Virus record (IMG/VR): IMGVR_UViG_3300030061_002036
Span: 9,894-70,494 of that record
DNA: 60,601 bases
Strand: one strand, 5' to 3'
Origin: a virus
Shown: piece after piece, positions 14,808 to 54,541 of the stretch
Layout of the letters: the number at the start of each line of letters is the position of its first letter
Position numbering within the stretch: position 1 is the first letter of the stretch
Translations under genes and position numbers: made by a program
The notes under the pieces: model-generated
What the model saw: the letters and a program-made list of their open reading frames with translations, nothing else
The model's database searches: none
What the model was told of the DNA's origin: nothing

Positions 14808-15272
14808 ATGAAATTAAAAGTATTAAGATTTAGTAGTCAAAAAGATTCTACTAATGGTTTATTATTTGATGCAACTGAAGGTATGAAATTTTTATGCTAT
14901 ACGCTAGAAGACGAAAAAAGAGAAGTTAAAGTTAAATCAGAAACACGTATTCCTGCAGGAACGTATAAAATCTTATTAAGAAAAGAAGGAGGATTTCATG
15001 GTAGATATGAAAAGAAGTATGGATCTATGCATAAAGGTATGCTATGGTTACAAGATGTTCCAGGATTTCAGTGGATCCTTATACATACTGGTAATACTGA
15101 TGAGCATACTGCAGGATGTTTGATTTTAGGAGATACACAAGAAAATAATGTAATAGCTGAAAACGGCTTTGTTGGCAGGTCTACATCTGCGTATAAACGT
15201 ATATACCCTATAATAGCAAAGGTTTTAGAAAATGAAGAAGAAGTAACAATTGAATATATTGATTTAGATTAA
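14808..15272 (+). CDS. DUF5675-family protein, putative lysis-associated enzyme
   Basis: A 154-residue protein of the DUF5675 type. It has an early YTLED strand, the R(I)PAGTYKI element near residue 48, and a late catalytic-looking segment, ILIHTGNT…HTAGCLI (H93, H100, C104). His plus a T-x-G-C loop resembles L,D-transpeptidase active sites. DUF5675 genes are frequent in phage lysis regions and have been suggested to act on peptidoglycan, but the reaction is not established to my knowledge. No signal peptide, so export would need the holin. It ends in a TAATG overlap with the fibre gene. Confidence 0.85.
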   Translation: MKLKVLRFSSQKDSTNGLLFDATEGMKFLCYTLEDEKREVKVKSETRIPAGTYKILLRKEGGFHGRYEKKYGSMHKGMLWLQDVPGFQWILIHTGNTDEHTAGCLILGDTQENNVIAENGFVGRSTSAYKRIYPIIAKVLENEEEVTIEYIDLD

Positions 15273-32187: not shown

Positions 32188-35100
32188 ATGTCAAATAAAA
32201 AATATCTTTGGGATTACAAAGATGCGGAGTTAGATAACAATAACCTCGAAGAGAAAAAAGAACCTACGTTTCAAGAGTGGAATGAAACTTTTCATTATAC
32301 TCCTGGACAAGCAACGGGCTTTGTAGTAGACGACAAAGAAGCAGAAGAAGTTCGTGATCTTATAAAAGATAGAGGTGCAGTACATTACGGTGCAGATGAT
32401 GTTCAAGAGTTAATAGCGGCAGATCAATCTACTGCAAATAAATGGGCCAACGCTTTAATAAAGCTTGCTCCTAAAACTTTAAATGTTGCAGTTGGAGGTA
32501 TAGCTATGTTGCCTTCAGCTATAGGGACTACTGCGGATTGGTTGGTGGGAGGACTTGAAGAAGGTGAGGCTTGGAAAGATATATATGATAACGATTTTCA
32601 CAGATCTTTAGACGGTATAAATGAGTGGTTAGACAAAGAACTTCCTAACTATTATACTAAAGAAGAGCAGAAAATGGGATTTATTAGAAGTATAGGAACA
32701 GCTAATTTTGTTAATGACTTTACTAATGGGCTTTCTTTTGTAGCTGGTGCGGTACTATCAGAACTGGCATTATCAGCAGCTACTGCAGCAACGTTTGGAG
32801 CAGCAGCACCTGCGCAAGGAGCGGGTACGGTTGGTATAGTATCAAGAGCAGCGTCTACCCTCAAAAATATTAGTAAAGGTAAAGCTGTAACTAATCCAAC
32901 TAGAGGGACTAAAGTAGCTGAAAAATTTTATAATACTGTTCCTAAGTTAGGATCAAGAATAAAAGCTGGAGGAATGCTAGGACGACGATTATTAACCGGA
33001 GCAGGATACGAATCAGGAGTCGAAGCAAGGCATCATATTGATTCTGTTTATTCTGAATTAAGTTCTGCTGAAGAAGCTAAACTGGGAAGACCATTAACAC
33101 AAGAAGAACAGGCCGACATCTACGATCTAGCTTCAGCTAGCGGTAATGCTGTTTTTACAGCTAACTTAGCTTTGGTAGGAGTAGGAAATATAGTTGCTTT
33201 TCCTAAACTGTTTGGACCTGGCTATAAAACAGCTTCAAAAAATTGGGGGAATGTTATGAGAGGGTTAAAGGGTGATTTAACATCTCCATACGTTGCCGCA
33301 CATAAAGCATGGAGTAAACAAAGAAACTTTTTAAATGCTGCATACCATGTACTTAAGCGACCGGCTTATGAAGGATTTGTAGAAGAAGGAGGCCAGTCTT
33401 GGTTAGATGTTGCGGGACAACATTCAGCAGCAGATTTTTATATGAGAGGTAAACGTCCTACTCAACTAGAGTCCGTAAAAGGATTAATACAAGGAATGCA
33501 TCAAACTGCTGTAGAAACTTTTGGTAGTAATCAAACTCAAAAAGAAATGGGTATTGGATTTTTACTTGGTGCGCTAGGTTTACCTACATATTCACGAACG
33601 CGAGGCACAGAAACTGTTGATCCTAAGACGGGTAAAAAGACTAAAGGTAAACGTGAATGGGGTATGATGGGAGGTTCTTATGGTTCTTATCAGGATATGA
33701 AAGCAGCTCAAAATAGAAGTGAAGCTTTAGCAGACTATGCTAATAAGTATCCTGATGCATTCCAAGCTTTAAAAAGTAACTTTGATTTATTAGTTAAAGA
33801 CGGAACTCTTTCTGAAGAGATGGATGTAGCTATGGCTACTAATAATATGTTTGCATGGAAGAGTGCTAAAGATGATCAATTTTTTAACTATGTAAGATCT
33901 AGAACACAAGCTGGATACTTTAACGATGTAGTAGATGATATAGAATCTATTAGACAGCTGGATAATAAAACTTTTGCAGAAGCATTTGGATACGATCCAG
34001 AAATGTCAGATACAGAACTATCTGCAAGAAAAGATAAAGTAGTAGAATCTGCTTTACGTAAGGCTAATTTAATCAAAAAGGCTAGTAAAACAATAGACAA
34101 TTTATATCAAGGGGAAAACGATGCTATAAGAGAAAGTATGGAACATGCATTAGCTTCAGTAGAATTAGTAGGAATAAGAGAAGAGTCTATATTAGATAAA
34201 ATAGATGAACTAACTGATGGTAAATTAAATCTACGGGCAAGTGAAGGTGTAAGCAAAATATTAAAAGAAACATTAGGCTCTGGTACAGTATCATTTGCAG
34301 CGCGTGCGGCGGAGATTAGAGAGCAATTAAAACAAAATAGTAATTTAGGACCTGACCACCCAAATAAATTTCCTGCAGACACTGTTCAGGAGTTAGAAGC
34401 AGCTGCGGAAATGCTAGAAAAAGGGCTTGGTGACTTACAATACTCTAACGCTGTAGATGATATAGAGTTTATGAAGAAATGGCAAGCAGAAGATCCAGAC
34501 GGATACAATGCCAGCCCGCATAGAAATGAAGTAGCTCAAATGTTATCTGATCTTAGAAAACTAAGAGAAAGAAGACAAGATGCTATTCGTATGTATAACC
34601 AGTTAAATACTAATTTAGGGGAAGCAGAGTTTAATAAACATGTAGAATACTATACTGATGCTTATGCTAAGCAAGAAAAGGCAAGACAGGAAGCTGCTAC
34701 TGAAGAAGCTGTTGAAACTCAAGATCCGCAAGCTTTATATAATGTTAATTCAGAAGCTGAGTTTATTATAAAAGATCCTAAGAACGGTAAAGATTTATTA
34801 GTAAAGTTTGCAGATAAAGATCATATCCAAGGAGTTGAAGATCCGTCAAGACGTTATAGTAGTAAATTGCTAGCAACACATTTTGTAAGAACAGCATCTC
34901 CTTCAACAGTTGAGGTAGATCCAGAACCTACAAACGAAGGAGAAATTTCTGTAGAAACTTCAGAGGAATACGATTTACCAATACGTGATCAAATAAAAAA
35001 GCCTAGCCTTGAGCATATAGGATTTGGTAAAACTGCAGGACAGATGAGTGGTGATATGTCCCCGGAGCAACAAAACTTTTACAATTACTTACACAGTACA

Positions 35101-38100
35101 ACAAACTTTTCTAATGTGGAGATAGAACTTGTCTCTCCTAAAAATAATAAGTATAGCTGGTTAGAGTTTTACGATAAAGATGATATAAAAGCTGTTGTTG
35201 TAAATAAAAAGTCAGGCACTCCTAAAAAGTTTAAGGGAGACTATGTGCATACATCTATTATGTTACCAGAATTAACTAAGGACGGCACTCCTAGATTTTA
35301 TGATTTAGACTCGTTGCCTAAAGAGTTTATTGACGCACGCGTAGAAGAGTTTAAACAGTTGCGAAAGACTGCAGCGGAAGGAAATGTTAGGCTGCCAATT
35401 ACTGGAAGGTCTGCCTTATTTGCAAGTCAGGCTACAAAAGATAATATAAATAATGAAGCTTATTATAGTATTGTAAAAAGAATTGTACCTACAAGAAAAG
35501 ATATAGCAGATGTTGATTTACGAATAGCTACTTCAAATAAAGTGCCTATTAATGCAATTGAATATAATGTAATTCCAGGTCTTCCTTTTATAGTGCATAA
35601 TCAAATGCCGATTACATTATTTAAACGAACGTTAACTGAAAAAGAAAATACTACAATTACTAATTTATTAGTAATGTATTCTCAAAATATGATTTCTAAA
35701 GATCCATCTGTTCAAGAAAATCCAGATCAAATTCTAGACAGTGCTGTTGGTCAAGGAGAGAATTTAAAGATAATAGATGCAATTAGAAGTATGATTAGAT
35801 TTGGAGGGTATAAAGATGGGGCATCTAATCCAGAATATCAAATAAAATTAACTAATAAAGGAGTGCTACTTAAAGGAAGAACTGCTTTAACTTGGAAAGC
35901 TTTAGCAAATGAAGATCCAAAAGCTATTGATAAATTAAAAACTTTTCTTAGCAATAAGATTCATGACATTAATAATAATATACTAAGAAGTAACGATGTA
36001 TATTATCATGTATCTTTAACAGAAGAAGGTTTAGATGTACAAGACTATACAAATTATAAAGAGTATTTATTAGCTCCTAGAGAGCTTACTGAGGAAATAC
36101 CATATAGAACAGCACTAGCGCCTATGTCTACTGATATGGATGCTCCACAATTTGCAGGAGGATATTTAACATTTGACATACCTTCAGCTGCTACTACGCC
36201 TAAAAAAGAAAGTACAGATAGTAGGCCTGCAGCTCAAAAAGAAGTAAATAAATTTGATACGTTTCAAAATATAATGACTGAAGGCACTGAATGGGCATTA
36301 GAAGGAGTTAGTACAAAAGGAGAGCCTAGATCTGCAAATTTTAAAGTAGTATCTCAAAATGGAGCAGCAACTGTTGTTGTACTACCTGGAGAGGATAAAC
36401 TATACTCTGCTTGGATTCAAGAAATAATACAGCCAAATTTAGTTAATCCAGATTATGCGCTAGCTAATTTTCATATAGACGTTAGAGGCATTTATGAAAT
36501 GAGTGTAGATGATTATAATAAAGTTAAACCACGTTTATATTCGAAAGAAGTTACTAGAGTTAATCCTTTTGAAGCAGTAGAAGAACAAACAGCAAATACT
36601 AGAAATGATATTAAACAAAAGGTAGAAGATGTTCCAGGTTATCTGTATAGTTATAAAGGAGTTCCAGTACTTCATAAGACTGATATTGTTACACAAGAAG
36701 GTACTCCAGGTACAGCTCAACGAACTACTTTGTTTGGCGGAGATGTTATCTATATAAATAAAACAAAAATGAAAGCTGCGTTTAAATCAAAAGCGTGGAC
36801 AACTCCTAGAAAATTAAAAGACGGTACATCTATTATACCAATACCTACAAATGCATTTCCTACATTAAAAGCTTTTGAATCTTTTATTATAGAGCATGAA
36901 TATCAACATACTCAAATAAAACAGAAGAAAGGAGAAACGATGGGAGAGTATGAAGATAGAATAAACCAGGCTGCTTTTAAAGCGTTAACACCTGAAGATG
37001 AGTCTACTGCAAATGAGAGTCCTAATCCTTTTGGACGTACTAGAAACAGACGTGCTCCAGGAGACACAAAAGCTTTAGAATCGCAACGTAAACTAAGAGG
37101 TAAGTATAAAAAAATAAACATAGCAGAAGAAAGACAATGGTTTGAAGGCAAGTTTAATATGCCATTTAATACTATGAAAGGGCTAGTATCTGGATCTAAT
37201 TACGGAGAGTTTAGACAACTAGCTGATGTTATGATTTCAGAGATGGCTATTGAAGGAACTACATTTCATGAGGCTTTTCATGTAGTACATGATTATTTTT
37301 GGACTCCAGAAGAAAAAGCACAAATATATAGAGATTATAAAAAATACACTAAACAGCCTAACATTACTAACGCTCAGATAGAAGAGGAGTTAGCAGAAGA
37401 ATTTAGACATTATATGTTAAAGGATGGATTGAGTGTAGTACCTCCTGTAAAAGGGCTTAAAGCTTGGTTTAAAAGATTATGGGATTTTATAAAATCTCTT
37501 GGTACTTCTGAAAGATATAGTCCAGAAGGGATTAGACTTGCTAATTTGTTTGAGTCTATTAGAACGACAGATTATAGGACTCCTAAACATGAGAAGACGG
37601 CACTATTAAATAGATTTCTTATATCTATTAACCCTACTACTAAAACATTAGAAGGCGCAAATGTATCAGAAACAAAAGCTATTCTTGATGGATTTGTTAA
37701 CTCTGTTTTTGATGAGCTGGATAAAGAAGAGTCTAGTTTACATTTTACTGATTTATTGAATTTAACTACTAATACAGAAGTAACAGCTGAATTTGGAGTA
37801 CTTATGCAGCATGGATTTGAAAACATGTTAGGAGTTCTAAGAAATCAAGTACAAGAACAATTAGCTGACGGCACCTGGGCAGATCGTACAGATGTTAGCA
37901 CAGCAGAACGAAATGCTGTTTATGATAATGCAGAATTTTTACAAGCTAATCAAGCAGAAATATTTGATTTGTTTACAGATTGGTTAGAAACTTTTGGCAT
38001 AAACATGGAGATAGAGTTAAATGAGACGGAAGCTACTAAAGAAAATAACTTTGGAGCTACTCATCAAGTTTTAGAAACTTCTGCAAGAGGAAATTCTCCT

Positions 38101-41100
38101 AATGTTATTAAGCTACTTATTGCTAGCTTACCTATTAATAGTGCTACTAGTACTACTATGGGACTTTACGGGCTAGTAGACTACACTAATGTATTTGACT
38201 CTTTACATAATGAGTTAGCCGGTGTTCAAGATTTTGCAGGTCAAGTGCAAGCAATAAAAAATATGGCTATGAATAGGCCTGATATTGCTCAACCTTTAGG
38301 CGTATTATTAAATAGACTAAAAGCTACTCACCAACCTTCAGAGTTAAACTTTAAACAAATCTCATTAAGAAATAAATTTATACAGCAATTTGATAAAACT
38401 AAAAATACTTATTATTTAAATTTAATTAAAGACCCTGTTACTATACACGCTACAGATTCTAATACATCAAGAACTGAAGATAAAATACGAAATGATTGGC
38501 GCTCTAATTTCAGAGAAATGGCATTATCAGAAAAAGGATTTTTTAAAATTAATGATGAAACTGGAGGAATCATACTAGACCCTAACAAAAAGTTTAAATT
38601 TGGAGCTAAGCAGGCTACTTATAAAACTCTCCCAAAATTCAAAGGGGACAGCTATTTTAATTTTTTAGACTTACTTGGAATTAATTTCACTAATAAAGCA
38701 GCATTAAAAAATAATCCAGACTTATTGACTGAGATTATGGACCATGTTATTAATATTAAAGAATTCTTTTTAAATAAACAAGCAAACGATACGGCTCTTG
38801 AAGTAGAGGATTTGTTTAGAGAAGAAGATTCAGGTATTGCAGCGCGATTAAATAAGCTAGTATCAATGGAGTTACCATATTATACTAATACAATCGAGCT
38901 ACAGCATATTACTCCAGAAGGTAAAAGAGCATATGGTATTACATTAGGTAATTTTATGACTCGAGTAGCTAACTCTTTAAGTAGAGGAGTGGTTCCTAAG
39001 TATCTGCAAGATGCGGGTACTACTGTTAGTGGTTCTAAGTGGCTTGAAACGGTGCAAAAAGGAGGCGGAATTAATGTAGTTATATTAGAAGGGGCTACAG
39101 AAGATGAGAAAGGCTCTACAGGAAATGTTACTAAAAATTTAACACCTACAGATAGAGATGCAATGTATATTAATAATACATTAAATGGTAGGTATCCAAT
39201 GCTACAAGCTTCTGAAAAGAAAACAGTATTTGGATTTGAAATACTAGATAAGAAAGGTGTAATAGGAGCGCGTAAGATAAATAGGGCTAGATCTATTTCT
39301 GATTTATTAGGACATCTTAAAAATGAAATAGAAATTACTTTAAATCTTGTTAGAGACAATAAAGGGAATGATATAAAAGGATTTAAAAATACAGCTAGAG
39401 GTTTAAGAGCTTTTGATTATTTAAATGCTATGCCTTTACCTGGAGGCAAGACTCTGATAGATGTTTTACAAGATGAGTTTGGGACTATATCTGCTGATGA
39501 AATAATGAAACAAAATTATACTCTTTTTGCGGGAGAGGTTGCCTTAAATGTAGATAAGCATATAGAAGAAACTACAGAAAGACTTATTAAAAATGGCATG
39601 CTTAAAATATATCCTAGCGGATTAATACATTTAAAAGGAATAGATGCTGAAACCTTTGGTAAGACTTTAGGACTGACACGTCCTACTAATAAAGAAGGAA
39701 ATAAAATAGATTATAAACAAGTTATTGGAGAGAAGTTAAAACTGACTCCAGAAGAGCTTAGACAATTTGTAGAAGCATTTGTTTTAAGAGACCAGTTATC
39801 AGCTTTAGAGCAATTAAAATTGTTCTTTGGAGATTTAGCATTTTTTACTGAAACTTCTCTATATAAAAGAACTGCAGGTCCTCATGGAGTTAAGAAGTTT
39901 GCTATTACAGGGGAGTTTATTTCAGATTGGCTTAATCAAAATATTAAAAGATTTGATAATAAAATAGCTGACGATAGGGTGCGAACTATAATGTTAAGAG
40001 ATGTAACAGCTTCTTCTCAATATTATAATGAGTATGCAAAGTTAGTTGGACCTGAAATAGCTGATGCTTATCTTAATTATAATGAGGCAGATGCTCAAGG
40101 ATTTATAACAATAGATGAGTATATTGAATTCTTAACAAGAACAAGTGATATAACAGAGAAACACTTAGATTTATATCAGAAAGTGCAGGAAGGATTACCA
40201 TTAACTTCTGAGGAAATGATTTATTTTACACCTTTAAAACCTCAATATTATGGGCCTTCAGAAGCTGAGGGTATGTATAGTCCTGCATATTATAAACTAT
40301 CTTTAGCTGTACTCTTACCGCAAATGCTGCAACGAGTGAATCCTAAGAATGGAATAATGGAAGAAACAGCCTTAGCACGTTTACATGAAGATATGGTTAA
40401 TAATCAAGTAGGTATAGCTGTATTTGAAAGTGGTATTAAAATTGGAGGTAAAGTTGATCCGGCATCTGGATTGTCGCAAAGGTTTTATAATAGAACAGGG
40501 GAGTATTCTAAAATGAATCCAAATAATATCCAAACATTATACTATGATTATTTAGGAGTACAAGTAGATATGGGAACTGCAGTTAAAGATAAATCTTCTT
40601 CAGGAACACAACGTAGGGCTTTAATATTAGCGAATCTTATGGAGAATGGGAAGGGGGATGAGAGTACTGTGAAGAGTTATAATGATGCGCATAATGCTAT
40701 GACTAACCATAACTTTCAAAACTTTGTACATAAACTAGGGTTTAAAGCTGATTCTGAAGCAGAAAATGGATATGTACAAGTAGCAGATGCTGAATACTTA
40801 AAAGAAGCTTTACTAAATGAGACTCGCCAAAGGAAATTAAATGATAATGAAATGGACGGGCTAGAGCTATTATTAGAAAGTGAAGACCAGTTTCTAGAAC
40901 TTGTTAGTAATAAACCCGCATTAGATAGTGTATTACATTCTTTATTTGCACGAGATGTAATAGAGAAAAAACGTTTTGGAGGAGCATACGCCCAAGTATC
41001 TTCTACAGGATCAGAGATAGCATCAGAGGGAAGAGGTATAACATTAAAGGCTATGAAACAATCCGACCATAGTTATGGTTCTAACACATCGCCTCTTAAA

Positions 41101-44100
41101 TTTTATAGAATGTCTAAAGACGGAAAAAGAGTATTAGGCATGGAAGTAATGCTTCCGCACTATTTTAAAGAGTTTTTAGGGAATGAAATACGTGTTATTA
41201 ATAATCAGATTGTAGACGCCGACGGAAATGTAATTGCAGGTAAAGAGTTATTAGATATTTTTGCCTTTAGAATTCCTACAACAGGTTTAGGTACAATAGA
41301 AGTTATAAGTATTAAAGGGTTTTTACCTAAAGAAGCAGGAGAAGCTGTTATGACGCCATCAGAGATAGTAGTTAAATCTGGATCAGATTATGATATAGAT
41401 AAACTTACTTTAATATTTCCTAACTATACTGTAATTAGAGAAGGTAACGCTAAACGCTTAGTTAAAATTCCTTATTTATCTGAGAAGATAGAAGATTTAG
41501 AAAAAGTACAGGCTCTTCGTCGTTATGACAGGCCTACATATAAAAGATTTATAGAAGAGGCGGGATTAAAAGAAGGGGATGTATTTAGAAAAGCATTTGA
41601 TGACATAAATAAAGAATTAAATAAATATAAAAAAGATTTGTTTGATTTATATAATACAGAAGAAGTAGCTAAACTAGATGGAAAAATTTCTTTATTAAAA
41701 GAAGACCGAGCAACAGCTAAAACAGCTAGTAAACGAAAACTTATTTCTAATCAAATTGAAGATTTAATTATGGATAAGATGGCTATAGTGTCTGGCTATA
41801 CTAACCAAATTTATAAAATTGAAGAGAGTTTTAATGAGTTAGATAAAGCATTAGCAAAGTCTTCATATTTTAAATCTTTGCCTAATGAGTACAAAAATGC
41901 TACTAAAGCCTTAGAAAATAGAGAGATTGATATATCACGTGATATAGCTACTAGACCTGAAATGCTTGCACAGCTGTTACGTCCTACAGGAGCTGCTAGA
42001 TTAGAGCAATTGGCGGATAGATTATCTCTTGATACTGGTATACCTTTACAAGAAGACCTGTCTTATAATTCTATTTTAGGATTTAATCATAGACAAAATA
42101 TGGGACAAAGATTTTGGGAAGGTAAGGCAGCTTTAGGTATAGCAGCTTTAGAAAATACTATGCACGTAAAAATGCAGCAAACTAACGCAACTCAAACAGT
42201 TACAGATGCAAATTATAAATTTGCAGAATTACTACAATTTGAGGAAGAAGATTCTTTCGAAAGGGATGAGAAATATAAAGAGATGAAAGCAAAGATAGCC
42301 GCCCAATACGGAGAGGCAGACAAAACATACGTAAACTATTTAGGATTCAGTAAAGATCAAGGAAAAACAGGATACTATGTTAATGAAATGCTAGGAGAAT
42401 TTGTTAATGCTTTTGTTGACGTAGCTAATAAACCGTTTGTATATGGATTAAATGCAAATATGGAAACTGCCAATACAATATTTACTTTATTACGTAAAGG
42501 AATGAGTATAGATACAATAGGTACATTTTTAATGCAGCCAGCTTTAAGAGATCTTACCGCTGAAGTTCCAAAAGCTAAGTCATTTATTTTAAACCTTAGT
42601 AGGAAAGACATAGTAGACAATATTTATAATAAATATGAAGATATAGCAGGTAAGGAAAGACTTGATCCGCAAGAGATTCATATAGAACAATTACAACGAG
42701 GATTAATGATGGGCAGAGATTTCGAATCTCTTAGCAAGCAACAACAACAAACATTTGGAGCGCTTCAATTAGCTGTTCTTGACATGTATAAACAAGCAAG
42801 ACTAGATGCTCGAGATGTTAGTCAAGTTACTTCTGCATTGGCTTATGATACAAATCCGCCTATGAATAGAATGGCTGCAAAAATAAAACAATTAAAATTG
42901 CAAAAGATTGGGGCATATGGATTTAAAACTGGGTTTTCAGTAGATATAGGAACTTTAACAACTGACTCATGGATGTCACAAATGGTTACAGCTACAAATG
43001 AAATCTTACCTTTATATAAAGATTTCTATTTAGTAGATACAAGCCCTATTGTAGAGAGAATGTTAGATGAAATAATAAGCAAAGCAGCATATAAACCAGA
43101 GCATGATCTAATAGCAGCACTAAATATACTTGAACATGATTACGTAACGTTTTTACTGTCAGGACTAACTGATTTAGAATCAGAAACTTCTCAGTTATTG
43201 CAAGGACCAAACAGTGTAGCAAGAAGATGGAGAGCTTTCCAAAAAGCAAATCCTGATAATTTATTATCTAAAGAATTATTTTCAGAATTACAAATACATA
43301 AAGATCCAAAGAATTTAGGATATAATATAGATGGTGTGAGAGCATTTGCAAGAAAATTACCTGCATTAGAGTCTAATTTATTGACAGAAGCATTTATGGA
43401 GCTATATAATGGATCTCCAGCACATAGAGATTTAGCAATTGATTTAATGAAAGTAGCTATACTTCAATATGGCATGAATAAATCTCCAAGATCATTTATG
43501 AGGATTGTTCCAGCTGGACTATATTCTAAAATAGCTAAGGAAATGGTTGATGAGTATAAGATTAGTAGATCCTTGGAGAGCAAGGGAATTATCAGTTCAG
43601 ATACCGCGGACGATATGGCATTTTTAGACCAATTTCCAAAAAATAATTGGAATAACGATATGATAGTTCCTACTGTTAGACCTGTATCCTTGACACCGGA
43701 CATGTCTGAAGAAGATATGAGAAACGCCTACCCAAGAATGGAAGATGGTGTATTATATATGAGGGGAAGAGATGCAACATATGTAAAGACATGGGTAGTA
43801 GATCCTAGTATTTCAGAAGAGAAAAGAAAAAGGTTAGAAAAGGCCGGTAAACGATTACCTGTAGTTGCTAGATTATTTAAAGCTATTCCAGGTTCTCCTG
43901 AAGACAAATTAGTTGCATATAAAAATGTTCCTAAATTAGGAAATGGAGTTAATTTAAAAGAATATAGTCTTAATTCTCAAAAGTCTTCTATTATTAATTT
44001 AAATAATGACTTAATAGGGTCTACTACTGAAGTTAAAACACAAATAAAAGATACACGAACTCCTGAAGAAAAAGTATTTGAAGGAAATATTTTTGATTTA

Positions 44101-44541
44101 AATGGTATTCCAGTAATTCCTATTAACTTACAAGGGGATCATGCAGATGGAATAGCACTTCAAGCTAAAAAATTAAATCTAATACAAGACAAGTTTGATA
44201 ATTCATATCAAGCAGGTAATACAAATAAGATAAATAACTTTACTCGAGGTAGATTAATTATAACTGTCCCTATTAAGGGTTCTGCTACTGCCCCTATTAA
44301 TCTAGAGCTTCTTAGTAAAGGAATGGCCAAAGTGGCAGCTATTGCAAAAGCAAATCCAAATCAGAAAATTTTAGTACCTTTGTCAAGAGATAGTAATACA
44401 CTTATTGATGATATTATCCCTGTCTATAAAAAATTAATGACTTCTAGTCCAAATATAAGTATAGTATTAGCTTCTACTAGTAACTTAACACAAAGAGGCA
44501 TTGAAGATAATGAAGTAATTAAAAAACTATTAAATTGTTAA
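32188..44541 (+). CDS. Giant virion RNA polymerase polyprotein with two HExxH metalloprotease-like motifs
   Basis: A 4117-residue protein. Residues 95-250 hold Ala-rich hydrophobic segments as in ejected cargo. Two zinc-metalloprotease signatures follow: HEYQH at 1570-1574, and HEAFH at 1694-1698 with a Glu-rich LAEEF element 40 residues later. The polymerase core shows R-I-P-T at 3028-3031 followed by SGSDYDIDKL (D3067, D3069, D3071), the metal-binding DxDxD of double-psi beta-barrel RNA polymerases as in phi14:2 gp66. C-terminal residues about 3970-4117 resemble a macro-like domain (NLQGDHADGIALQAKK). Likely packaged and ejected to transcribe early genes. It is roughly double the 2180 residues I recall for gp66, suggesting fusion with other cargo. 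The AACCAAT leader before its ATG resembles the minus-strand leaders only weakly. Confidence 0.82.
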   Translation: MSNKKYLWDYKDAELDNNNLEEKKEPTFQEWNETFHYTPGQATGFVVDDKEAEEVRDLIKDRGAVHYGADDVQELIAADQSTANKWANALIKLAPKTLNVAVGGIAMLPSAIGTTADWLVGGLEEGEAWKDIYDNDFHRSLDGINEWLDKELPNYYTKEEQKMGFIRSIGTANFVNDFTNGLSFVAGAVLSELALSAATAATFGAAAPAQGAGTVGIVSRAASTLKNISKGKAVTNPTRGTKVAEKFYNTVPKLGSRIKAGGMLGRRLLTGAGYESGVEARHHIDSVYSELSSAEEAKLGRPLTQEEQADIYDLASASGNAVFTANLALVGVGNIVAFPKLFGPGYKTASKNWGNVMRGLKGDLTSPYVAAHKAWSKQRNFLNAAYHVLKRPAYEGFVEEGGQSWLDVAGQHSAADFYMRGKRPTQLESVKGLIQGMHQTAVETFGSNQTQKEMGIGFLLGALGLPTYSRTRGTETVDPKTGKKTKGKREWGMMGGSYGSYQDMKAAQNRSEALADYANKYPDAFQALKSNFDLLVKDGTLSEEMDVAMATNNMFAWKSAKDDQFFNYVRSRTQAGYFNDVVDDIESIRQLDNKTFAEAFGYDPEMSDTELSARKDKVVESALRKANLIKKASKTIDNLYQGENDAIRESMEHALASVELVGIREESILDKIDELTDGKLNLRASEGVSKILKETLGSGTVSFAARAAEIREQLKQNSNLGPDHPNKFPADTVQELEAAAEMLEKGLGDLQYSNAVDDIEFMKKWQAEDPDGYNASPHRNEVAQMLSDLRKLRERRQDAIRMYNQLNTNLGEAEFNKHVEYYTDAYAKQEKARQEAATEEAVETQDPQALYNVNSEAEFIIKDPKNGKDLLVKFADKDHIQGVEDPSRRYSSKLLATHFVRTASPSTVEVDPEPTNEGEISVETSEEYDLPIRDQIKKPSLEHIGFGKTAGQMSGDMSPEQQNFYNYLHSTTNFSNVEIELVSPKNNKYSWLEFYDKDDIKAVVVNKKSGTPKKFKGDYVHTSIMLPELTKDGTPRFYDLDSLPKEFIDARVEEFKQLRKTAAEGNVRLPITGRSALFASQATKDNINNEAYYSIVKRIVPTRKDIADVDLRIATSNKVPINAIEYNVIPGLPFIVHNQMPITLFKRTLTEKENTTITNLLVMYSQNMISKDPSVQENPDQILDSAVGQGENLKIIDAIRSMIRFGGYKDGASNPEYQIKLTNKGVLLKGRTALTWKALANEDPKAIDKLKTFLSNKIHDINNNILRSNDVYYHVSLTEEGLDVQDYTNYKEYLLAPRELTEEIPYRTALAPMSTDMDAPQFAGGYLTFDIPSAATTPKKESTDSRPAAQKEVNKFDTFQNIMTEGTEWALEGVSTKGEPRSANFKVVSQNGAATVVVLPGEDKLYSAWIQEIIQPNLVNPDYALANFHIDVRGIYEMSVDDYNKVKPRLYSKEVTRVNPFEAVEEQTANTRNDIKQKVEDVPGYLYSYKGVPVLHKTDIVTQEGTPGTAQRTTLFGGDVIYINKTKMKAAFKSKAWTTPRKLKDGTSIIPIPTNAFPTLKAFESFIIEHEYQHTQIKQKKGETMGEYEDRINQAAFKALTPEDESTANESPNPFGRTRNRRAPGDTKALESQRKLRGKYKKINIAEERQWFEGKFNMPFNTMKGLVSGSNYGEFRQLADVMISEMAIEGTTFHEAFHVVHDYFWTPEEKAQIYRDYKKYTKQPNITNAQIEEELAEEFRHYMLKDGLSVVPPVKGLKAWFKRLWDFIKSLGTSERYSPEGIRLANLFESIRTTDYRTPKHEKTALLNRFLISINPTTKTLEGANVSETKAILDGFVNSVFDELDKEESSLHFTDLLNLTTNTEVTAEFGVLMQHGFENMLGVLRNQVQEQLADGTWADRTDVSTAERNAVYDNAEFLQANQAEIFDLFTDWLETFGINMEIELNETEATKENNFGATHQVLETSARGNSPNVIKLLIASLPINSATSTTMGLYGLVDYTNVFDSLHNELAGVQDFAGQVQAIKNMAMNRPDIAQPLGVLLNRLKATHQPSELNFKQISLRNKFIQQFDKTKNTYYLNLIKDPVTIHATDSNTSRTEDKIRNDWRSNFREMALSEKGFFKINDETGGIILDPNKKFKFGAKQATYKTLPKFKGDSYFNFLDLLGINFTNKAALKNNPDLLTEIMDHVINIKEFFLNKQANDTALEVEDLFREEDSGIAARLNKLVSMELPYYTNTIELQHITPEGKRAYGITLGNFMTRVANSLSRGVVPKYLQDAGTTVSGSKWLETVQKGGGINVVILEGATEDEKGSTGNVTKNLTPTDRDAMYINNTLNGRYPMLQASEKKTVFGFEILDKKGVIGARKINRARSISDLLGHLKNEIEITLNLVRDNKGNDIKGFKNTARGLRAFDYLNAMPLPGGKTLIDVLQDEFGTISADEIMKQNYTLFAGEVALNVDKHIEETTERLIKNGMLKIYPSGLIHLKGIDAETFGKTLGLTRPTNKEGNKIDYKQVIGEKLKLTPEELRQFVEAFVLRDQLSALEQLKLFFGDLAFFTETSLYKRTAGPHGVKKFAITGEFISDWLNQNIKRFDNKIADDRVRTIMLRDVTASSQYYNEYAKLVGPEIADAYLNYNEADAQGFITIDEYIEFLTRTSDITEKHLDLYQKVQEGLPLTSEEMIYFTPLKPQYYGPSEAEGMYSPAYYKLSLAVLLPQMLQRVNPKNGIMEETALARLHEDMVNNQVGIAVFESGIKIGGKVDPASGLSQRFYNRTGEYSKMNPNNIQTLYYDYLGVQVDMGTAVKDKSSSGTQRRALILANLMENGKGDESTVKSYNDAHNAMTNHNFQNFVHKLGFKADSEAENGYVQVADAEYLKEALLNETRQRKLNDNEMDGLELLLESEDQFLELVSNKPALDSVLHSLFARDVIEKKRFGGAYAQVSSTGSEIASEGRGITLKAMKQSDHSYGSNTSPLKFYRMSKDGKRVLGMEVMLPHYFKEFLGNEIRVINNQIVDADGNVIAGKELLDIFAFRIPTTGLGTIEVISIKGFLPKEAGEAVMTPSEIVVKSGSDYDIDKLTLIFPNYTVIREGNAKRLVKIPYLSEKIEDLEKVQALRRYDRPTYKRFIEEAGLKEGDVFRKAFDDINKELNKYKKDLFDLYNTEEVAKLDGKISLLKEDRATAKTASKRKLISNQIEDLIMDKMAIVSGYTNQIYKIEESFNELDKALAKSSYFKSLPNEYKNATKALENREIDISRDIATRPEMLAQLLRPTGAARLEQLADRLSLDTGIPLQEDLSYNSILGFNHRQNMGQRFWEGKAALGIAALENTMHVKMQQTNATQTVTDANYKFAELLQFEEEDSFERDEKYKEMKAKIAAQYGEADKTYVNYLGFSKDQGKTGYYVNEMLGEFVNAFVDVANKPFVYGLNANMETANTIFTLLRKGMSIDTIGTFLMQPALRDLTAEVPKAKSFILNLSRKDIVDNIYNKYEDIAGKERLDPQEIHIEQLQRGLMMGRDFESLSKQQQQTFGALQLAVLDMYKQARLDARDVSQVTSALAYDTNPPMNRMAAKIKQLKLQKIGAYGFKTGFSVDIGTLTTDSWMSQMVTATNEILPLYKDFYLVDTSPIVERMLDEIISKAAYKPEHDLIAALNILEHDYVTFLLSGLTDLESETSQLLQGPNSVARRWRAFQKANPDNLLSKELFSELQIHKDPKNLGYNIDGVRAFARKLPALESNLLTEAFMELYNGSPAHRDLAIDLMKVAILQYGMNKSPRSFMRIVPAGLYSKIAKEMVDEYKISRSLESKGIISSDTADDMAFLDQFPKNNWNNDMIVPTVRPVSLTPDMSEEDMRNAYPRMEDGVLYMRGRDATYVKTWVVDPSISEEKRKRLEKAGKRLPVVARLFKAIPGSPEDKLVAYKNVPKLGNGVNLKEYSLNSQKSSIINLNNDLIGSTTEVKTQIKDTRTPEEKVFEGNIFDLNGIPVIPINLQGDHADGIALQAKKLNLIQDKFDNSYQAGNTNKINNFTRGRLIITVPIKGSATAPINLELLSKGMAKVAAIAKANPNQKILVPLSRDSNTLIDDIIPVYKKLMTSSPNISIVLASTSNLTQRGIEDNEVIKKLLNC

Positions 44542-44545
44542 CTTT

Positions 44546-45199
44546 ATGGCATTAACCGATTATCAGATTACATATTTAACCGAAGAATTTAGAGTATTAT
44601 CTCGTGAAGAGTTAAATAGTCTTAGAGCAGAAAATCCAAAAGCATATACTGAATATAATGGATGGTATGATTTATTTTTATCTAATCAAGATATTTTTGA
44701 AACTGCTGTAGAAAGATACGGGGTAACACTTAGAGATGATGAAGGAGAAGCTTTACCTCCATCAGATCCAGACTTTCAAGCCTTTGAAGATATAATTGAA
44801 ACTTCTGCATCTGAAGTTCTTGGAGCGGCTCAAAAAGCAAAATCAGTTGAACAAAATATTAAAAAAACACTAGGTGAAGAGTCTGATATAGAACAGTATA
44901 GTGATAATCATTTTCTTATTAAAAGAGAGCCTAAACTTCTTCGAGCGGAAGATAAAATTACTCAAGTTCAAATTACAGCTGCAGAATTAGCTACTGTTTC
45001 TGGTCTTCATAAACGTAAATTATTAGACGCTCGTGCTAACTATGATCCATTTGTTTCTGTACCTGTAACAGATTCAGCCGGAAATGTAACATATACTATA
45101 TCAGATGATGCCTTAATCTCATTTGTAGAAACTATGGAAGTTTCTTCGATTGTTAAGGAAATTAAAAATGAAAACTACAAGAATAAATATAATAGATAA
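44546..45199 (+). CDS. Hypothetical protein between the two giant cargo genes, 217 aa
   Basis: A 217-residue, acidic, mostly helical protein. It has a central predicted coiled coil (about 85-120) and a small beta segment around KLLRAEDKITQVQI. No signal peptide or membrane helix. It starts 4 bp after the polymerase polyprotein and ends in a TAATG overlap with the nuclease-containing giant protein, so all three are probably made together. A packaging, chaperone or linker role for the giant proteins is plausible but unsupported by any motif I know. Confidence 0.7.
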   Translation: MALTDYQITYLTEEFRVLSREELNSLRAENPKAYTEYNGWYDLFLSNQDIFETAVERYGVTLRDDEGEALPPSDPDFQAFEDIIETSASEVLGAAQKAKSVEQNIKKTLGEESDIEQYSDNHFLIKREPKLLRAEDKITQVQITAAELATVSGLHKRKLLDARANYDPFVSVPVTDSAGNVTYTISDDALISFVETMEVSSIVKEIKNENYKNKYNR

Positions 45200-48100
45200 T
45201 GGCGTGTCCTAATAAAAATCATCCAACCTGGAAAAATTTAGTAGCTAAAGTAGGTGAATATGAAGCTATGTCTTTATATATGCGTAATGATGAAAGCACC
45301 CCTAGTATAGGAAGAGATTTAAAAATACCTAAAAGCGGCATAGTTTCATATCAGCAAAAAATAAATATATTAAAAAGAATAAGGCCGTATAATACTAAAT
45401 TAGGGACCGGACACAGAGTAAAATTTATTCCTACGGGAGAATCTTATGAAGGAAAAAGAGAATACACATATGTAATTACAATTGAAGAAAATTGGAAAAG
45501 AAATAAAGATAGTCAAATGGCTTTATTTCAAGATAAAGCAGACCAAACAAAAGAACGAAACGAAAGAATTGAAGATTCAATGAGAGTGTTCTTAGACACT
45601 ATTGGAGTTGATTATCAAACTGTTGATCAAATTACTGATCGAGACGGAAATGCTTTAGGATTTGCAGCTAAAGCTGATATGCTTAATAAAGTTGTTGAAG
45701 TAGTTGAAGATAAAGCTGGAATTGATACTTTACCAGAAGAGGCTGCGCATTTCTTTGTCAATATCTTAGAAGCTGAAGGAGACCCTTTATATCTGTCATT
45801 GTATAATAATATAGATAAATATAAAGTCTTTGATGAAGTTGTAGAAAATCCAAATTATCAAAATTACTCAGAGGAAATGCAACGTAAGGAAGCTATTGGA
45901 AAAGCTATTGCAAAACATATAATAGGAAATGACAGTGATGCAGAATTATCTGATAACTTATCTAGATTACAAAGGTGGTGGATTAAACTCTTAAACAAAA
46001 TAAAAAAATTCTTTAATAAAACAGTTGATGATCCATATAGAACAGCTGCTTTGAACATGCTAAATAATGAAGTTAATCAAAATGCTGCAGAATTAATAAC
46101 TGAAGAGCAAATAGAATTAGGAGATCTATATCAAGATTCTCCGCAGGACAAACAGGCAAATGTTAAGAAATTACTTGACGAAACGGAAACAGATTTAGAA
46201 ATGCGTTTACGAGATAATGAAGAAATAGCAGCTACATCTAAAGCTATACTAGATCTTCCGGAAGGTAAACAAACTAGTATGTATTACAGCCGTAGTCGAG
46301 GATCATTTGTTCAAGGAAGAGTTTCTCACATGGCTCAAGAAAAGCTTATTAAAAAGAAAGGTAAGCAATGGATGAGAGAAATTAACCAAAGGCCAGTAAA
46401 TGAACACAAACGTACTCAAGGTACTGTGCATCACTCTACTATGCAAAATTTAGTAGACTTTTGGAGAGATTATACTGGAGCTAATAAAGAAGCAGAAAAT
46501 AGACGATTAGAAGCTATAAAAGAAGCTGCTACTAATGTTGAAGGTTTAAAGATAATGACTAAAGAGCAATTTGCTATCTTATCAACTAATGTTAAGAAAA
46601 TTATAGGGGAAATTAAGAAACAGCAAAAAGAAATAGATCCTAATGGAAAGGCTGATATACGATCAGAAGCAATGTTATATGCTCCTGCAGAAAAAAGAGG
46701 GTTATATTATGGGGATACGGCAGGTACAGTAGATTTATTAGCTGTCTTTTCTGACGGCTCGGCATCTATTTATGACTGGAAATTTATTAGTCCGAGCCAA
46801 ACAGCTGGATTTGGGCAAAAAAGAATGATAAGAGAAACGCCTTTCAGGTCAAAAGAAGATGGATATAATATGCAAATAGGAGCATATAAAAATATTCTTC
46901 AAAATTTTTACAGAGTAAAGAAAGTTAGACGTACAAGAATAGTTCCAGTACATGTGCAGTATAAATGGGTAGGTAAATCAGGAGAGAAAACTATGTCTCC
47001 TGTAGTAGACACGCTTAAGATGGCTTACGATTTACAAGTAGAAGACGGTAAATTTGTAGAAGTAACAGGAGATCCATATTTAAAACAAATACCTGTAGCA
47101 GATGAATTAACAGATAAAAAGGGACTAGATAAGATCTTAAATCAAAAAATTCAAGAAAGAGCTGTTTTAAAAACAAAAATTGAAACAGAAAAAGATGCTC
47201 AGAAAAAACAAAAATTAAGAATAAAATTAGAAAAGCGGGATCTAGCAATTAAGGAAATGCAACGTTCAGGAGATTTATACAATCTTATAGCGGATGCAGC
47301 TGCTACTATAGTAGAATTAGAAGATAGACTGCCTATTACTGATAAAGAGGATGTGAATTATATTCAATTTGATGAATTAGAAGATTTTGTAAGAGATATT
47401 TCATCAGGAGTTTTACTAATAGGAGATTCTACTGAATATCTAAAAAATTTAGAAGATAAAGAGCTTAAAGATAAGTTAGAAGACGTAATGGATAGGTGGG
47501 CTAAACCGCTAAATCAAATGTATGACACATTACGAGATTATAGAAGTTTAAGAATTCAAGAGTTGGGAGAATCTAGAGGTATAAAAGATGTAACTAGGCC
47601 TCAAAGAGAATATGGATTTGGTAAATGGTTTGAACAATCTTCTAGTAGTCTACATCCTATATTTCAACTCGCAAGAGATCATGTAGAAAGAGCTAATAAT
47701 GAGGCTCGAATTAAAACAAAAGAAGTTTATGAAGAAATAGAAGTTCTTAGAAATGATATAAAAGAAAAATCCGGCTTAGGGTTACAAGAAGCTTATGATG
47801 TAATGTTTAATACTGAGACTGGTAATTTACATCCTCGTATTACAAAAGAATTTTGGGAAAGAAAAAAGAAAGCGATTGAGGAAAATGATTCTAATTGGAT
47901 GAAAAGAAATTATAAATTAAAATCAGACGCACAGAAAAGATATTTAGAAAGACGAAAGAAATTTTTTGCTTATGTAGATAGGAATTTTGCAGATTACCAG
48001 GCTTTGTATAAAGACCAAAAGTTAGTTACTCCTCGAAAGAGTCAAAAACAGATGCGTGATAGATTAAAAGCTCAGTGGGAAGCCAAAAATAATATTAAGC

Positions 48101-50169
48101 AAAACTCTATGTGGACTGGCCCCGAAGCGTATATATATACAGAGTTAAGAGAAGAAACTTTAAATGATAATTATTCTAAAGAGTTTAAAACTATAATGAA
48201 TAATCCTTCTTTATTAGCATTTTATGAGTATTATCAGAAAAAGAATAGAGAATTTAGTGAAATAACTAATATGAGATTTGCAGATAATTTTGTAGGAAAT
48301 ATTCATCAAGATATAATTGACTCATTTTCAGAAAATGGATTTGGATTTAAAGATTTGTTAACGAAAAGTTTAGAGTCTTTGGAAATGAGGCAAGATGAAA
48401 TTACTCCGGAATCTGTAGATGAGCACGGAAATCTAATACAAACTATTCCTTTATTATACACTACGCCAGGAACGTTAATAGATCCAGCTACAGGAGAAAT
48501 AAACTTTAGATTAAAGAGTAGAGATTTAGGTAAATCTTTAGTGGCGATGGCAGCAACAGTTTATAATTACGCAGAAAAATCAAAAATTGAAGCTATTAAT
48601 CTATCTTTATTAGAATATCTTCAGGACTCTAAAACTGCTATACTACCTACTGATAGTAATGATAATTTATTAATGGGGAAAGCTGGTAAGATTATGGAAA
48701 AGATAGCACCGTCTGATGCTGCAGATTTCTTTCAAAGGTTATATATTAATTTTGATTTATATGGACAACGTATTCAAAGTAAAGATCAAAAATGGTTTGG
48801 GAAGTATAGTAGAAAGAAAGTTCTAGGAGGAATGAAAAGCCTTTTTAGTGCGCAGGCGTTAGGATTTGCCGTTGTACCTGCACTAGCTGCGGGCGTAGTA
48901 GGTAAAATCAGTACCTGGATTGAATCTAAAAAAGCAACATCTTTTACCACAAAACAACTTTTAGCGGCAGAAAAATCTGCAATAACTGATAAAAACAAGT
49001 TTAATGCTGTAGTTAACTATTTTGAAATCTGGCAAGAAGATATGACTGCTAGAAGAATGTTAAAAAGTTCAGCAGGAATTGTGTCAAGATGGGTTAATTT
49101 AGATACTTTATTTGCACCTTTTAGAATAGCTGATAATTTTTTAGATAACACAATTTTAAATGCAATGATGAGAAATTTTGGCGCAGATGCAAATGGAATG
49201 CCTAAACGTCTTAAGTATTTACCAGAAGGCAGTAAATCATTATATGAATTATTTGAAGTGTCTACAGAAGGTCCGGGCAATGAAGGAACAGTATTTACAG
49301 GCTTAAGTAAAGATGGGGAAGTTAGGTTTAGAGAAATGGCTCAACATATTACAGGAGGTATAAAAGGAAGTATGCGTTCTGATGATGTAAGTCCTATTGA
49401 TACTACTTTAATAGGAGATTTAGTAATGCATTTTAAAGGATGGGCTCCAAGATTATTACAAGAACGATTTGGTAAGTTTAGATATAGTCCTAAAATGGAC
49501 ATGTATGAGTGGGGAAGGTATAAAGTAGCTGCAAGCGAATTTATGGCAGAAAAGGATTTAGAAAGTAGACTGCAAACAGTAACAAAGACTTTTGCAAAAT
49601 GGGCGCTTGAGACAGTAACATTTGGAGCTGTAAAAGGGGTAAAAATGAATGAGGAAAATGCGGAGAAAGAGTATCATAAGTTTAAAATGGAAAATCCAGA
49701 CGATCCGGATATTCAAAATATGAGTAAAGAGGAATTTTATGATTCAAAAAGAGCACAATTAAGAGCTATGGCAGCGGAGTTAAAAGGTCTATTTGGAATA
49801 TTCCTTGCAATATTTGCATTAACAAGAGAGGGAGAGGATGAGAAGCCTATATATACTAAAACATGGGCTACAAGAAAATTAATGATGGTAATGATGAAAG
49901 CGCAGCTTGAATTAGGGTTTGCATTAAATCCAACAGATTGGACTCAAATGTTCAGAACTCCAATACCTTTAACAGGCTTGGCAGTAGAACTTCAAAAATC
50001 TTTCTTTAATTTTATACAAGAATCAAATGATTTAATTATGGGGAATGATAACCGGAGAGATAAAACTCCTTTTGGTTATTACACATTTAGGATGTTGCCA
50101 GGATTTAGGCAAGTGTCTAGGATGGGGGAATTTTATGCACAGGATAAGAAAAATCCTTATGATAGATAA
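45199..50169 (+). CDS. Giant cargo protein with PD-(D/E)XK nuclease core
   Basis: A 1656-residue protein. At residues 180-184 it reads EEAAH inside TLPEEAAHFFV, which looks like a zincin helix with the first His replaced by Glu. Residues about 395-560 hold a RecB/Cas4-like PD-(D/E)XK core: GTVHHSTMQN, then GTVDLL with D512, and IYDWKF with D526-x-K528, followed by QIGAYKNIL. The rest is largely helical, with a long coiled-coil region (600-960) and hydrophobic helices near residue 1215 and 1530. As the last gene before the convergent terminator and after the virion polymerase, it is likely an ejected protein that could cut host DNA or process phage DNA ends. The nuclease assignment is from motifs; delivery is inferred. 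Confidence 0.78.
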   Translation: MACPNKNHPTWKNLVAKVGEYEAMSLYMRNDESTPSIGRDLKIPKSGIVSYQQKINILKRIRPYNTKLGTGHRVKFIPTGESYEGKREYTYVITIEENWKRNKDSQMALFQDKADQTKERNERIEDSMRVFLDTIGVDYQTVDQITDRDGNALGFAAKADMLNKVVEVVEDKAGIDTLPEEAAHFFVNILEAEGDPLYLSLYNNIDKYKVFDEVVENPNYQNYSEEMQRKEAIGKAIAKHIIGNDSDAELSDNLSRLQRWWIKLLNKIKKFFNKTVDDPYRTAALNMLNNEVNQNAAELITEEQIELGDLYQDSPQDKQANVKKLLDETETDLEMRLRDNEEIAATSKAILDLPEGKQTSMYYSRSRGSFVQGRVSHMAQEKLIKKKGKQWMREINQRPVNEHKRTQGTVHHSTMQNLVDFWRDYTGANKEAENRRLEAIKEAATNVEGLKIMTKEQFAILSTNVKKIIGEIKKQQKEIDPNGKADIRSEAMLYAPAEKRGLYYGDTAGTVDLLAVFSDGSASIYDWKFISPSQTAGFGQKRMIRETPFRSKEDGYNMQIGAYKNILQNFYRVKKVRRTRIVPVHVQYKWVGKSGEKTMSPVVDTLKMAYDLQVEDGKFVEVTGDPYLKQIPVADELTDKKGLDKILNQKIQERAVLKTKIETEKDAQKKQKLRIKLEKRDLAIKEMQRSGDLYNLIADAAATIVELEDRLPITDKEDVNYIQFDELEDFVRDISSGVLLIGDSTEYLKNLEDKELKDKLEDVMDRWAKPLNQMYDTLRDYRSLRIQELGESRGIKDVTRPQREYGFGKWFEQSSSSLHPIFQLARDHVERANNEARIKTKEVYEEIEVLRNDIKEKSGLGLQEAYDVMFNTETGNLHPRITKEFWERKKKAIEENDSNWMKRNYKLKSDAQKRYLERRKKFFAYVDRNFADYQALYKDQKLVTPRKSQKQMRDRLKAQWEAKNNIKQNSMWTGPEAYIYTELREETLNDNYSKEFKTIMNNPSLLAFYEYYQKKNREFSEITNMRFADNFVGNIHQDIIDSFSENGFGFKDLLTKSLESLEMRQDEITPESVDEHGNLIQTIPLLYTTPGTLIDPATGEINFRLKSRDLGKSLVAMAATVYNYAEKSKIEAINLSLLEYLQDSKTAILPTDSNDNLLMGKAGKIMEKIAPSDAADFFQRLYINFDLYGQRIQSKDQKWFGKYSRKKVLGGMKSLFSAQALGFAVVPALAAGVVGKISTWIESKKATSFTTKQLLAAEKSAITDKNKFNAVVNYFEIWQEDMTARRMLKSSAGIVSRWVNLDTLFAPFRIADNFLDNTILNAMMRNFGADANGMPKRLKYLPEGSKSLYELFEVSTEGPGNEGTVFTGLSKDGEVRFREMAQHITGGIKGSMRSDDVSPIDTTLIGDLVMHFKGWAPRLLQERFGKFRYSPKMDMYEWGRYKVAASEFMAEKDLESRLQTVTKTFAKWALETVTFGAVKGVKMNEENAEKEYHKFKMENPDDPDIQNMSKEEFYDSKRAQLRAMAAELKGLFGIFLAIFALTREGEDEKPIYTKTWATRKLMMVMMKAQLELGFALNPTDWTQMFRTPIPLTGLAVELQKSFFNFIQESNDLIMGNDNRRDKTPFGYYTFRMLPGFRQVSRMGEFYAQDKKNPYDR

Positions 50170-53682: not shown

Positions 53683-54541
53683 AAAAAATATACCGTATTT
53701 TATTCCACGGTATTTTGGAATTGTGTAACTGTTTAAAATCAGCTATAAATTGAGATTTCATTCCTAATTTATATCTAACATTTTCTCCACCATACTGAGA
53801 TTTCTTTATTTCCTGTTTATTTAGGACCCAAAGATCTACTTCAGTAGCAGGATTTTTAGTTAAGTTAATTGTATGTTTCTTAAAGTTATGAGTCAAGAAT
53901 ATACATTCTGACAACACTTCTTTTTTATAGGATACATGATCATTCATCATATCAAACAACTCTGAGTAATCATCTAACCACCCATCGTAAACTATAATAG
54001 GACTATAATTTACGTGTACGTCATACCCTGCTTCTATAAATGTATTAATAGCTTTTATTCTATCTATAATTTTAGAAGTATGAGGCTCGTGTAGATCTGA
54101 CTTATGTTGAGGCATTAAGCTAAATCTAATACGTATTTTCTTTAGAGGATTAAAGTCTAACAACTTAGTATTTACATACTTTGTTGCAAAGCTGCCCATA
54201 GCAACAGGGTGATCTCTAAAGAACTCGAAGATTCTTTCCCACTCGTGGTGTTTAGCGTGCAGCGCAAAGTCCTCATTACAACTAATGTCGTAAGTTGTAA
54301 ACTCTGCATGCGTTTGATTAGGTTTTTCCACTGGTGTGAAATACGCATGATTATTGACTGAAGTCAATATATCACCCGTATTCACAGCAATAGATAATCC
54401 CTCATCTTTATGGCGTTTCATATAACAGTATGAACAGTTATATAAGCAGCCATAACCAAAACTTGGACTTATAAAATCTGTGGATCTACCAGAAGGACGT
54501 ATTTTAAACGTCTTCCTGGTATCCTTAGTTATGAGTCCCAT
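53681..54541 (-). CDS. SplB-like radical SAM protein
   Basis: A 286-residue protein. Near the start it has the radical SAM cluster motif CLYNCSYC (C32, C36, C39), preceded by FGYGC and followed by YMKRH, typical of the spore photoproduct lyase/SplB-related group. The rest follows the partial TIM-barrel pattern (residues around 90-270). Such enzymes bind a 4Fe-4S cluster and cleave SAM to a radical; SplB repairs UV thymine dimers, but phage relatives may do other chemistry. The gene lies between rIIA and rIIB and overlaps the rIIA stop by 13 bp, which links it to the rII operon. The radical SAM class is firm; the substrate is unknown. Confidence 0.85.
   Translation of the reverse strand: MGLITKDTRKTFKIRPSGRSTDFISPSFGYGCLYNCSYCYMKRHKDEGLSIAVNTGDILTSVNNHAYFTPVEKPNQTHAEFTTYDISCNEDFALHAKHHEWERIFEFFRDHPVAMGSFATKYVNTKLLDFNPLKKIRIRFSLMPQHKSDLHEPHTSKIIDRIKAINTFIEAGYDVHVNYSPIIVYDGWLDDYSELFDMMNDHVSYKKEVLSECIFLTHNFKKHTINLTKNPATEVDLWVLNKQEIKKSQYGGENVRYKLGMKSQFIADFKQLHNSKIPWNKIRYIF

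Follow-up and report, generated by a model that had tools for sequence, protein, structure and literature searches.

A YENRIN-type zincin and the resident Crassvirales zincin are predicted side by side in one giant virion RNA polymerase chain

Organization of the giant virion RNA polymerase chain

The window, which is the whole stretch of 60,601 bases analyzed here, was taken from an IMG/VR virus contig of 89,487 bases. The following features of its giant chain and the neighboring region are referred to below:

32188..44541, plus strand: giant virion RNA polymerase chain, 4117 aa (ORF list, DxDxD motif, N-terminal phrog_32390 match, Crassvirales RNAP matches)
32395..33594, plus strand: gp47/gp45-like N-terminal module, residues 70-469 (phrog_32390, E 2e-43)
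36739..37008, plus strand: domain 1, residues 1518-1607, predicted YENRIN-type zincin (profile, AlphaFold core, structural neighbors)
36895..36909, plus strand: HEYQH, residues 1570-1574, predicted zinc site 1
36952..36954, plus strand: E1589 within YEDRIN, predicted to supply the third ligand of site 1 from the following helix
37009..37092, plus strand: putative basic low-complexity linker between the domains, residues 1608-1635 (from sequence, no homologue aligned)
37093..37596, plus strand: domain 2, residues 1636-1803, predicted resident Crassvirales zincin (profile, alignments A1/A3/A4, AlphaFold core)
37267..37281, plus strand: HEAFH, residues 1694-1698, predicted zinc site 2
37384..37386, plus strand: E1733, predicted third zinc ligand of site 2 (invariant in A1; helix 93-109 of the model)
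41386..41400, plus strand: DYDID, residues 3067-3071, catalytic DxDxD of the polymerase
45199..50169, plus strand: giant ORF, 1656 aa, putatively gp49-like by synteny only

The giant ORF had originally been described as a polymerase polyprotein, and this was found to be correct, as the region around DYDID resembles Crassvirales RNA polymerases (matches to E 2e-39). The phrog_32390 family matched by the N-terminus has a length of 1957 aa, which is also the length of p-crAssphage gp45. From its sequence, the 4117-aa chain is read as a gp47-like module fused to a DxDxD polymerase module. No PHROG match was found for the 1656-aa ORF further downstream, which may occupy the place of the third RNAP-associated cargo protein.

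HEYQH and HEAFH were both confirmed at the positions first given, 124 residues apart, and are the sole HExxH motifs across window ORFs of at least 80 aa. Composition shuffles of the 4117-aa chain contained a mean of 0.06 HExxH motifs, and two or more were obtained in 0.25% of the shuffles. No DNA-level relatives of the two-motif region were found among phage records, and a single 500-aa query did not retrieve any related loci; profile queries did retrieve loci.

Two other ORFs of the window showed matches to known phage proteins. Residues 34-145 of a 497-aa ORF (15272-16765, plus strand) matched virion structural proteins of Synechococcus phages with 40% identity and its remaining parts matched tail-fiber families, which suggests that tail parts may have been exchanged with aquatic phages. 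A 926-aa ORF (54529-57309, minus strand) matched RIIA lysis inhibitor families (E 9e-17), and such matches would not be expected for a crAss-like phage.

Domain 2 belongs with the zincin of Crassvirales polymerase chains

A tblastn search with residues 1372-1905 yielded 65 phage records at E ≤0.1, which belonged to Crassvirales wherever a classification was seen; all matches listed lay downstream of motif 1 and all spanned motif 2. An HExxH motif was present at the corresponding place in 24/24 fetched Crassvirales chains, and only one of them had another HExxH at any position (Dulem virus 41, 2,188 residues off). An alignment of 22 relatives (A1), from which the too divergent p-crAssphage and cr8 were excluded, showed H1694, E1695, H1698, E1733, A1736, and F1739 to be invariant. 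The Glu-rich helix noted about 40 residues past HEAFH is present: it comprises E1732-E1734 and E1737-E1738, and the invariant E1733 falls in a predicted helix. A profile made without the window found domain 2 at E 8e-28. By these sequence comparisons, site 2 is assigned as the resident CRASSVIRALES zincin of Crassvirales virion RNA polymerase chains. The crAss-like zincin is already known by annotation, p-crAssphage KP06_gp45 being annotated as a 'putative RNAP associated protein fused to zincin protease'.

For structure prediction of domain 2, the alignment rows consisted of the window and IMG/VR sequences only. The AlphaFold model contained an N-terminal helix, three strands, the HEAFH helix (56-69), and the E1733 helix (93-109), with a mean pLDDT of 81.7 and about 90-96 in the core. 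The nearest solved folds were PprI/IrrE (Z 6.7), lethal-factor-type zincins, ArdC (Z 5.8), and PPEP-1. Searches for a named peptidase family in Pfam (curated cut-off) and PHROGs yielded none for either domain of the window, with a weak Pfam match to DUF4344, 'putative metallopeptidase' (E 0.09), as the only one.

In some lineages a gene boundary lies just before domain 2, and in others just after it, the loci L046, L054, L058, L067, L085, and L090 differing in this respect from L045, L095, L100, L104, L107, L110, and L111. Thus, depending on the phage, the zincin is encoded either by the polymerase gene or by the gp47-like gene.

Exchange of HExxH and HExxE at site 2

Variation at site 2 was studied in 80 IMG/VR loci that were retrieved by the polymerase core to avoid selection by the motif itself. 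In most polymerase-anchored loci, domain 2 lay roughly 1340-1660 aa upstream of DxDxD; in several, no detectable domain 2 was present despite a long upstream sequence. The non-identical polymerase-anchored copies (n = 56) were divided into 32 with HExxH and 24 with HExxE. Across 170 aligned sites, the fifth motif position was His in 140 and Glu in 30, with no third state, and H1694, E1695, and E1733 were kept in 30/30 HExxE rows. The carriers of HExxE were L029 (3-11027, residue about 1172), L243, L246, L247, L250, L256-L261, L264, L269, L270, L277-L281, L284, L291, L293, L297, L301, L302, and L308-L310.

When the site 2 state was placed on a tree built from 130 columns with the site columns removed, 7 changes were counted, of which at least 3 were forced by well-supported branches of this otherwise poorly resolved tree. 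According to the codon table, a change from His to Glu takes two base changes; as no intermediate was seen, these sequences suggest that selection acts on the metal site.

Domain 1 represents a different zincin family

Site 1 appears, from its sequence, to belong to a different and apparently undescribed zincin family with the signature HExxH-x13-YE[ND]RIN. A DNA pattern written for this signature matched at least 119 stretches in viral contigs; it occurred once in the window, not at all in window shuffles, and no match was found in 257 Gb of bacterial and archaeal genomes. Sequence common to the members extended beyond the pattern, roughly as F..KAWT.P..GV.PL....FKT..EW..FV..HE..H......GE..A.YENRIN..AL, and the Glu of 'GE' (E1583 in the window) was invariant, though absent from the search pattern. 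A profile made without the window found domain 1 at E 4e-27, and a single copy was detected in the window's own record. A chance origin of HEYQH was ruled out by the domain 1 profile together with the absence of matches in the scanned cellular genomes. Six further members likewise gave no named family in Pfam or PHROGs.

The AlphaFold model of domain 1 (mean pLDDT 85.9, core about 95-97) contained a three-stranded sheet, the HEYQH helix, and a downstream helix with E1589. Its top structural neighbors were zincins or zinc hydrolases, namely YbeY (Z 6.6), PprI (Z 5.8), selecase and abylysin (both Z 5.1), CapP, and MATCAP; one plain Foldseek search with domain 1 returned nothing at E 0.001 or better. 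For both domains the best structural Z was 6 to 7 and thus under 8, the level that stands alone, and the predicted zincin fold is supported by the agreement of motif, layout, and neighbors rather than by Z alone. The original reading of HEYQH and HEAFH as zinc-protease-like sites agrees with these models: both motifs fall within helices predicted as zincin active sites, each followed by a conserved Glu, and in the structural comparison that had been proposed as a check, zincins dominated the neighbors of both domains. The first half of the refuting condition that had been set for that reading, a predicted structure in which neither site is in a zincin helix, thus did not hold.

Complete domain 1 was carried by giant proteins in every case. 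About a dozen distinct contigs contained it in DxDxD chains, usually 10-40 residues from the C-terminus and about 790-920 aa past DxDxD; in L113/L261 it begins the following ORF instead. Among six non-polymerase carriers examined, five matched phrog_342, the T7 gp16-like 'internal virion protein with endolysin domain', and one (L131) had an N-terminal phage lysozyme. Matches of domain 1 carriers to phrog_342 reached E 9e-65. T7 gp16-like ejection proteins with domain 1 were seen in the uncultured phages L139, L165, L160, L167, and L173. Domain 1 appears to be a mobile, virus-only zincin common to T7 gp16-like proteins and DxDxD chains, two unrelated ejected kinds.

Since the domain 1 set was selected by its own motif, counting intact sites within it would be circular. 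Nine vRNAP contigs were found to have a homologous domain 1 copy after DxDxD that reads RExxR. Dead RExxR copies inside crAss-like polymerase chains were located about 510-630 aa past DxDxD in L307, L268, L252, L253, L303, L305, L306, L158, L222, and L282. Dead variants in general read RExxR or KE..R. In the cultured pelagiphage EXVC031P, domain 1 is present (E 2e-20) and the HExxH is lost. The RExxR copies and EXVC031P are two independent observations showing that the domain 1 site can be lost. L158 and L222 combine a dead and an intact domain 1 within one chain, and L147 and L199 have a dead domain 1 in tandem, ahead of an intact copy.

The two sites do not form a conserved pair

The paired arrangement had been proposed as a functional device upstream of the polymerase. 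An hhalign comparison of domain 1 with domain 2 detected no relation (probability 1.4%), so at profile level there is no support for duplication of one domain. The 250 aa preceding site 2 contained no second HExxH in any of 24 Crassvirales chains or of 80 IMG/VR chains retrieved via site 2. A conserved tandem pair was rejected, as no other checked chain has both sites adjoining; among about 110 chains examined, domain 1 lies directly upstream of domain 2 in the window only. In L032, the nearest chain in which both modules occur, nothing aligned to window residues 1356-1639. The proposed pair is therefore best regarded, from these sequences, as a juxtaposition of two unrelated domains and not as a conserved device.

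Domain 1 and the HExxH of site 2 were both intact in five contigs (the window, L178, L152, L158, and L212), and further chains with an intact domain 1 had HExxE at site 2. Strict reciprocity, in which one site would be dead while the other is alive, was rejected by these five contigs.

Comparison with known systems

The RNAP-associated zincin of Crassvirales (PhiCrAss001 gp47, KP06_gp45) is homologous to domain 2, with HExxH-x34-ExxAxxF adjoining the polymerase module. Compared to these proteins, the window has the gp47-like and polymerase modules in one chain, as do many Suoliviridae, and it has a second zincin ahead of the resident one. T7 gp16-like internal virion proteins (phrog_342) share domain 1 with the window, often with an intact HExxH ... 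YENRIN, but are otherwise unrelated proteins without a polymerase.

The N4 virion RNA polymerase (Schitoviridae) is likewise a giant ejected RNAP and, according to PMC12633501 and PMC5512222, contains a zincin-type HExxH C1 domain; we found HELVH in it. It differs by its T7-type polymerase core, and at profile level it showed no match above noise to either the domain 1 or the domain 2 profile. The MPTase of polyvalent proteins, for which 12 clades have been published, is described in PMC5512222 as a core of three strands plus a C-terminal pair of helices, bearing HExxH and a Glu, in giant multidomain virion proteins. More than one MPTase copy is given there for about 8%, either of the MPTase carriers or of the whole set. 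The general notion that giant virion RNAPs, among other polyvalent proteins, contain zincins was published in 2017 (PMC5512222).

No paper dealing with a zincin together with crAssphage was found in the open-access literature. Within that literature we did not find descriptions of the YENRIN family, its sharing by two ejected kinds, its position here, or the HExxH/HExxE exchange, an earlier mention elsewhere being possible. The YENRIN family is apparently new as judged against Pfam, PHROGs, and the open-access literature.

Possible roles of the two domains

The reading we favor, with a chance that we place a little short of even, is that the domains are accessory metallopeptidases that are delivered with the ejected cargo and act after ejection in the newly infected cell. 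The capsid would hold the packed chain, which would pass through the tail in a partly unfolded state and refold in the host. There, both domains would bind zinc and, as accessory peptidases, attack host proteins, co-ejected cargo, or both. They would not be an obligatory cutter that frees the polymerase before packaging. In PhiCrAss001, gp47, gp49, and gp50 are virion cargo whose ejection is expected to take place in a partly unfolded state (PMC10172136). For both domains of the window, zinc binding, catalysis, timing, and targets are what we infer. A role that is accessory rather than essential is indicated by HExxE at site 2 in 24/56 copies and by the dead RExxR or KE..R copies of domain 1. 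Zincin folds may be non-catalytic.

An unlikely reading, though the strongest of the alternatives, is self-processing, in which one or both zincins cut the gp47/polymerase junction, at assembly or post-ejection, and free the polymerase. Self-processing is a general proposal for the metallopeptidases of polyvalent proteins, and domain 2 is positioned at the module junction. Besides, 13 of the 18 gene breaks found near domain 2 in 80 IMG/VR loci, which are interrelated, lie within 300 aa of the domain 2 HExxH on either side, and this clustering beside domain 2 leaves room for junction cleavage. P1 DdrB, which contains an MPTase, is cleaved before packaging (PMC5512222). However, the site 2 ligands are intact also where the junction is a gene boundary (PhiCrAss001, cr85, cr112, cr128, and Dulem virus 41), and 24 of 56 relatives have HExxE. 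Furthermore, PhiCrAss001 virions show bands at 270 and >300 kDa, known by size only (PMC6235969), and N4 vRNAP is packaged uncut with a zincin of its own (PMC5512222). The original suggestion of self-cleavage to free the polymerase is weakened by these points. As an obligatory step it is unlikely, because site 2 is kept where the modules are separate genes, is HExxE in many relatives, and because site 1 has dead copies.

Slightly more doubtful still is a structural role, in which the metal sites stabilize small domains obliged to unfold and fold again as the protein is ejected, and proteolysis plays no part. The exclusive use of His or Glu at the fifth position of site 2, the retention of E1733 in every HExxE row, and the switches forced on the tree are in line with it; what is conserved seems to be metal ligation rather than a protease motif, and dead domain 1 copies persist. 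On the other hand, the general-base Glu of HExxH is also invariant, which a purely structural site would not require, and the tree of 130 columns resolves poorly. The repeated His/Glu exchange fits a structural metal site and a protease equally.

The five phrog_342-matching proteins align best from profile position 211 or later, with the part upstream unmatched, and we take that upstream part to be the place of the T7 gp16 endolysin domain. Digestion of peptidoglycan peptides or of periplasmic or inner-membrane proteins by domain 1 at entry would be consistent with this, with the frequent occurrence of domain 1 in T7 gp16-like proteins and with the lysozyme of L131, but is very improbable, as domain 1 is fused in polymerase chains to a protein required in the cytoplasm and known cell-wall zinc peptidases were matched neither in sequence nor in fold.

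The YENRIN zincin may be an entry effector that can pass between unrelated classes of ejected protein, having spread between T7 gp16-like ejection proteins and the virion RNA polymerases of crAss-like phages, with the resident zincin toggling between HExxH and HExxE while keeping its ligands. The two together would then be evolving, tunable metallopeptidase cargo and not a fixed processing enzyme, a view that we hold tentatively and with somewhat less confidence than the accessory role itself.

Few parts of phage entry are understood as poorly as the giant proteins that podoviruses eject. One small zincin family that is present in two unrelated ejected kinds, and in none of the scanned cellular genomes, is a candidate for an enzyme of the entry moment. 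The His/Glu exchange at the resident site amounts to a natural test of whether any proteolysis is required.
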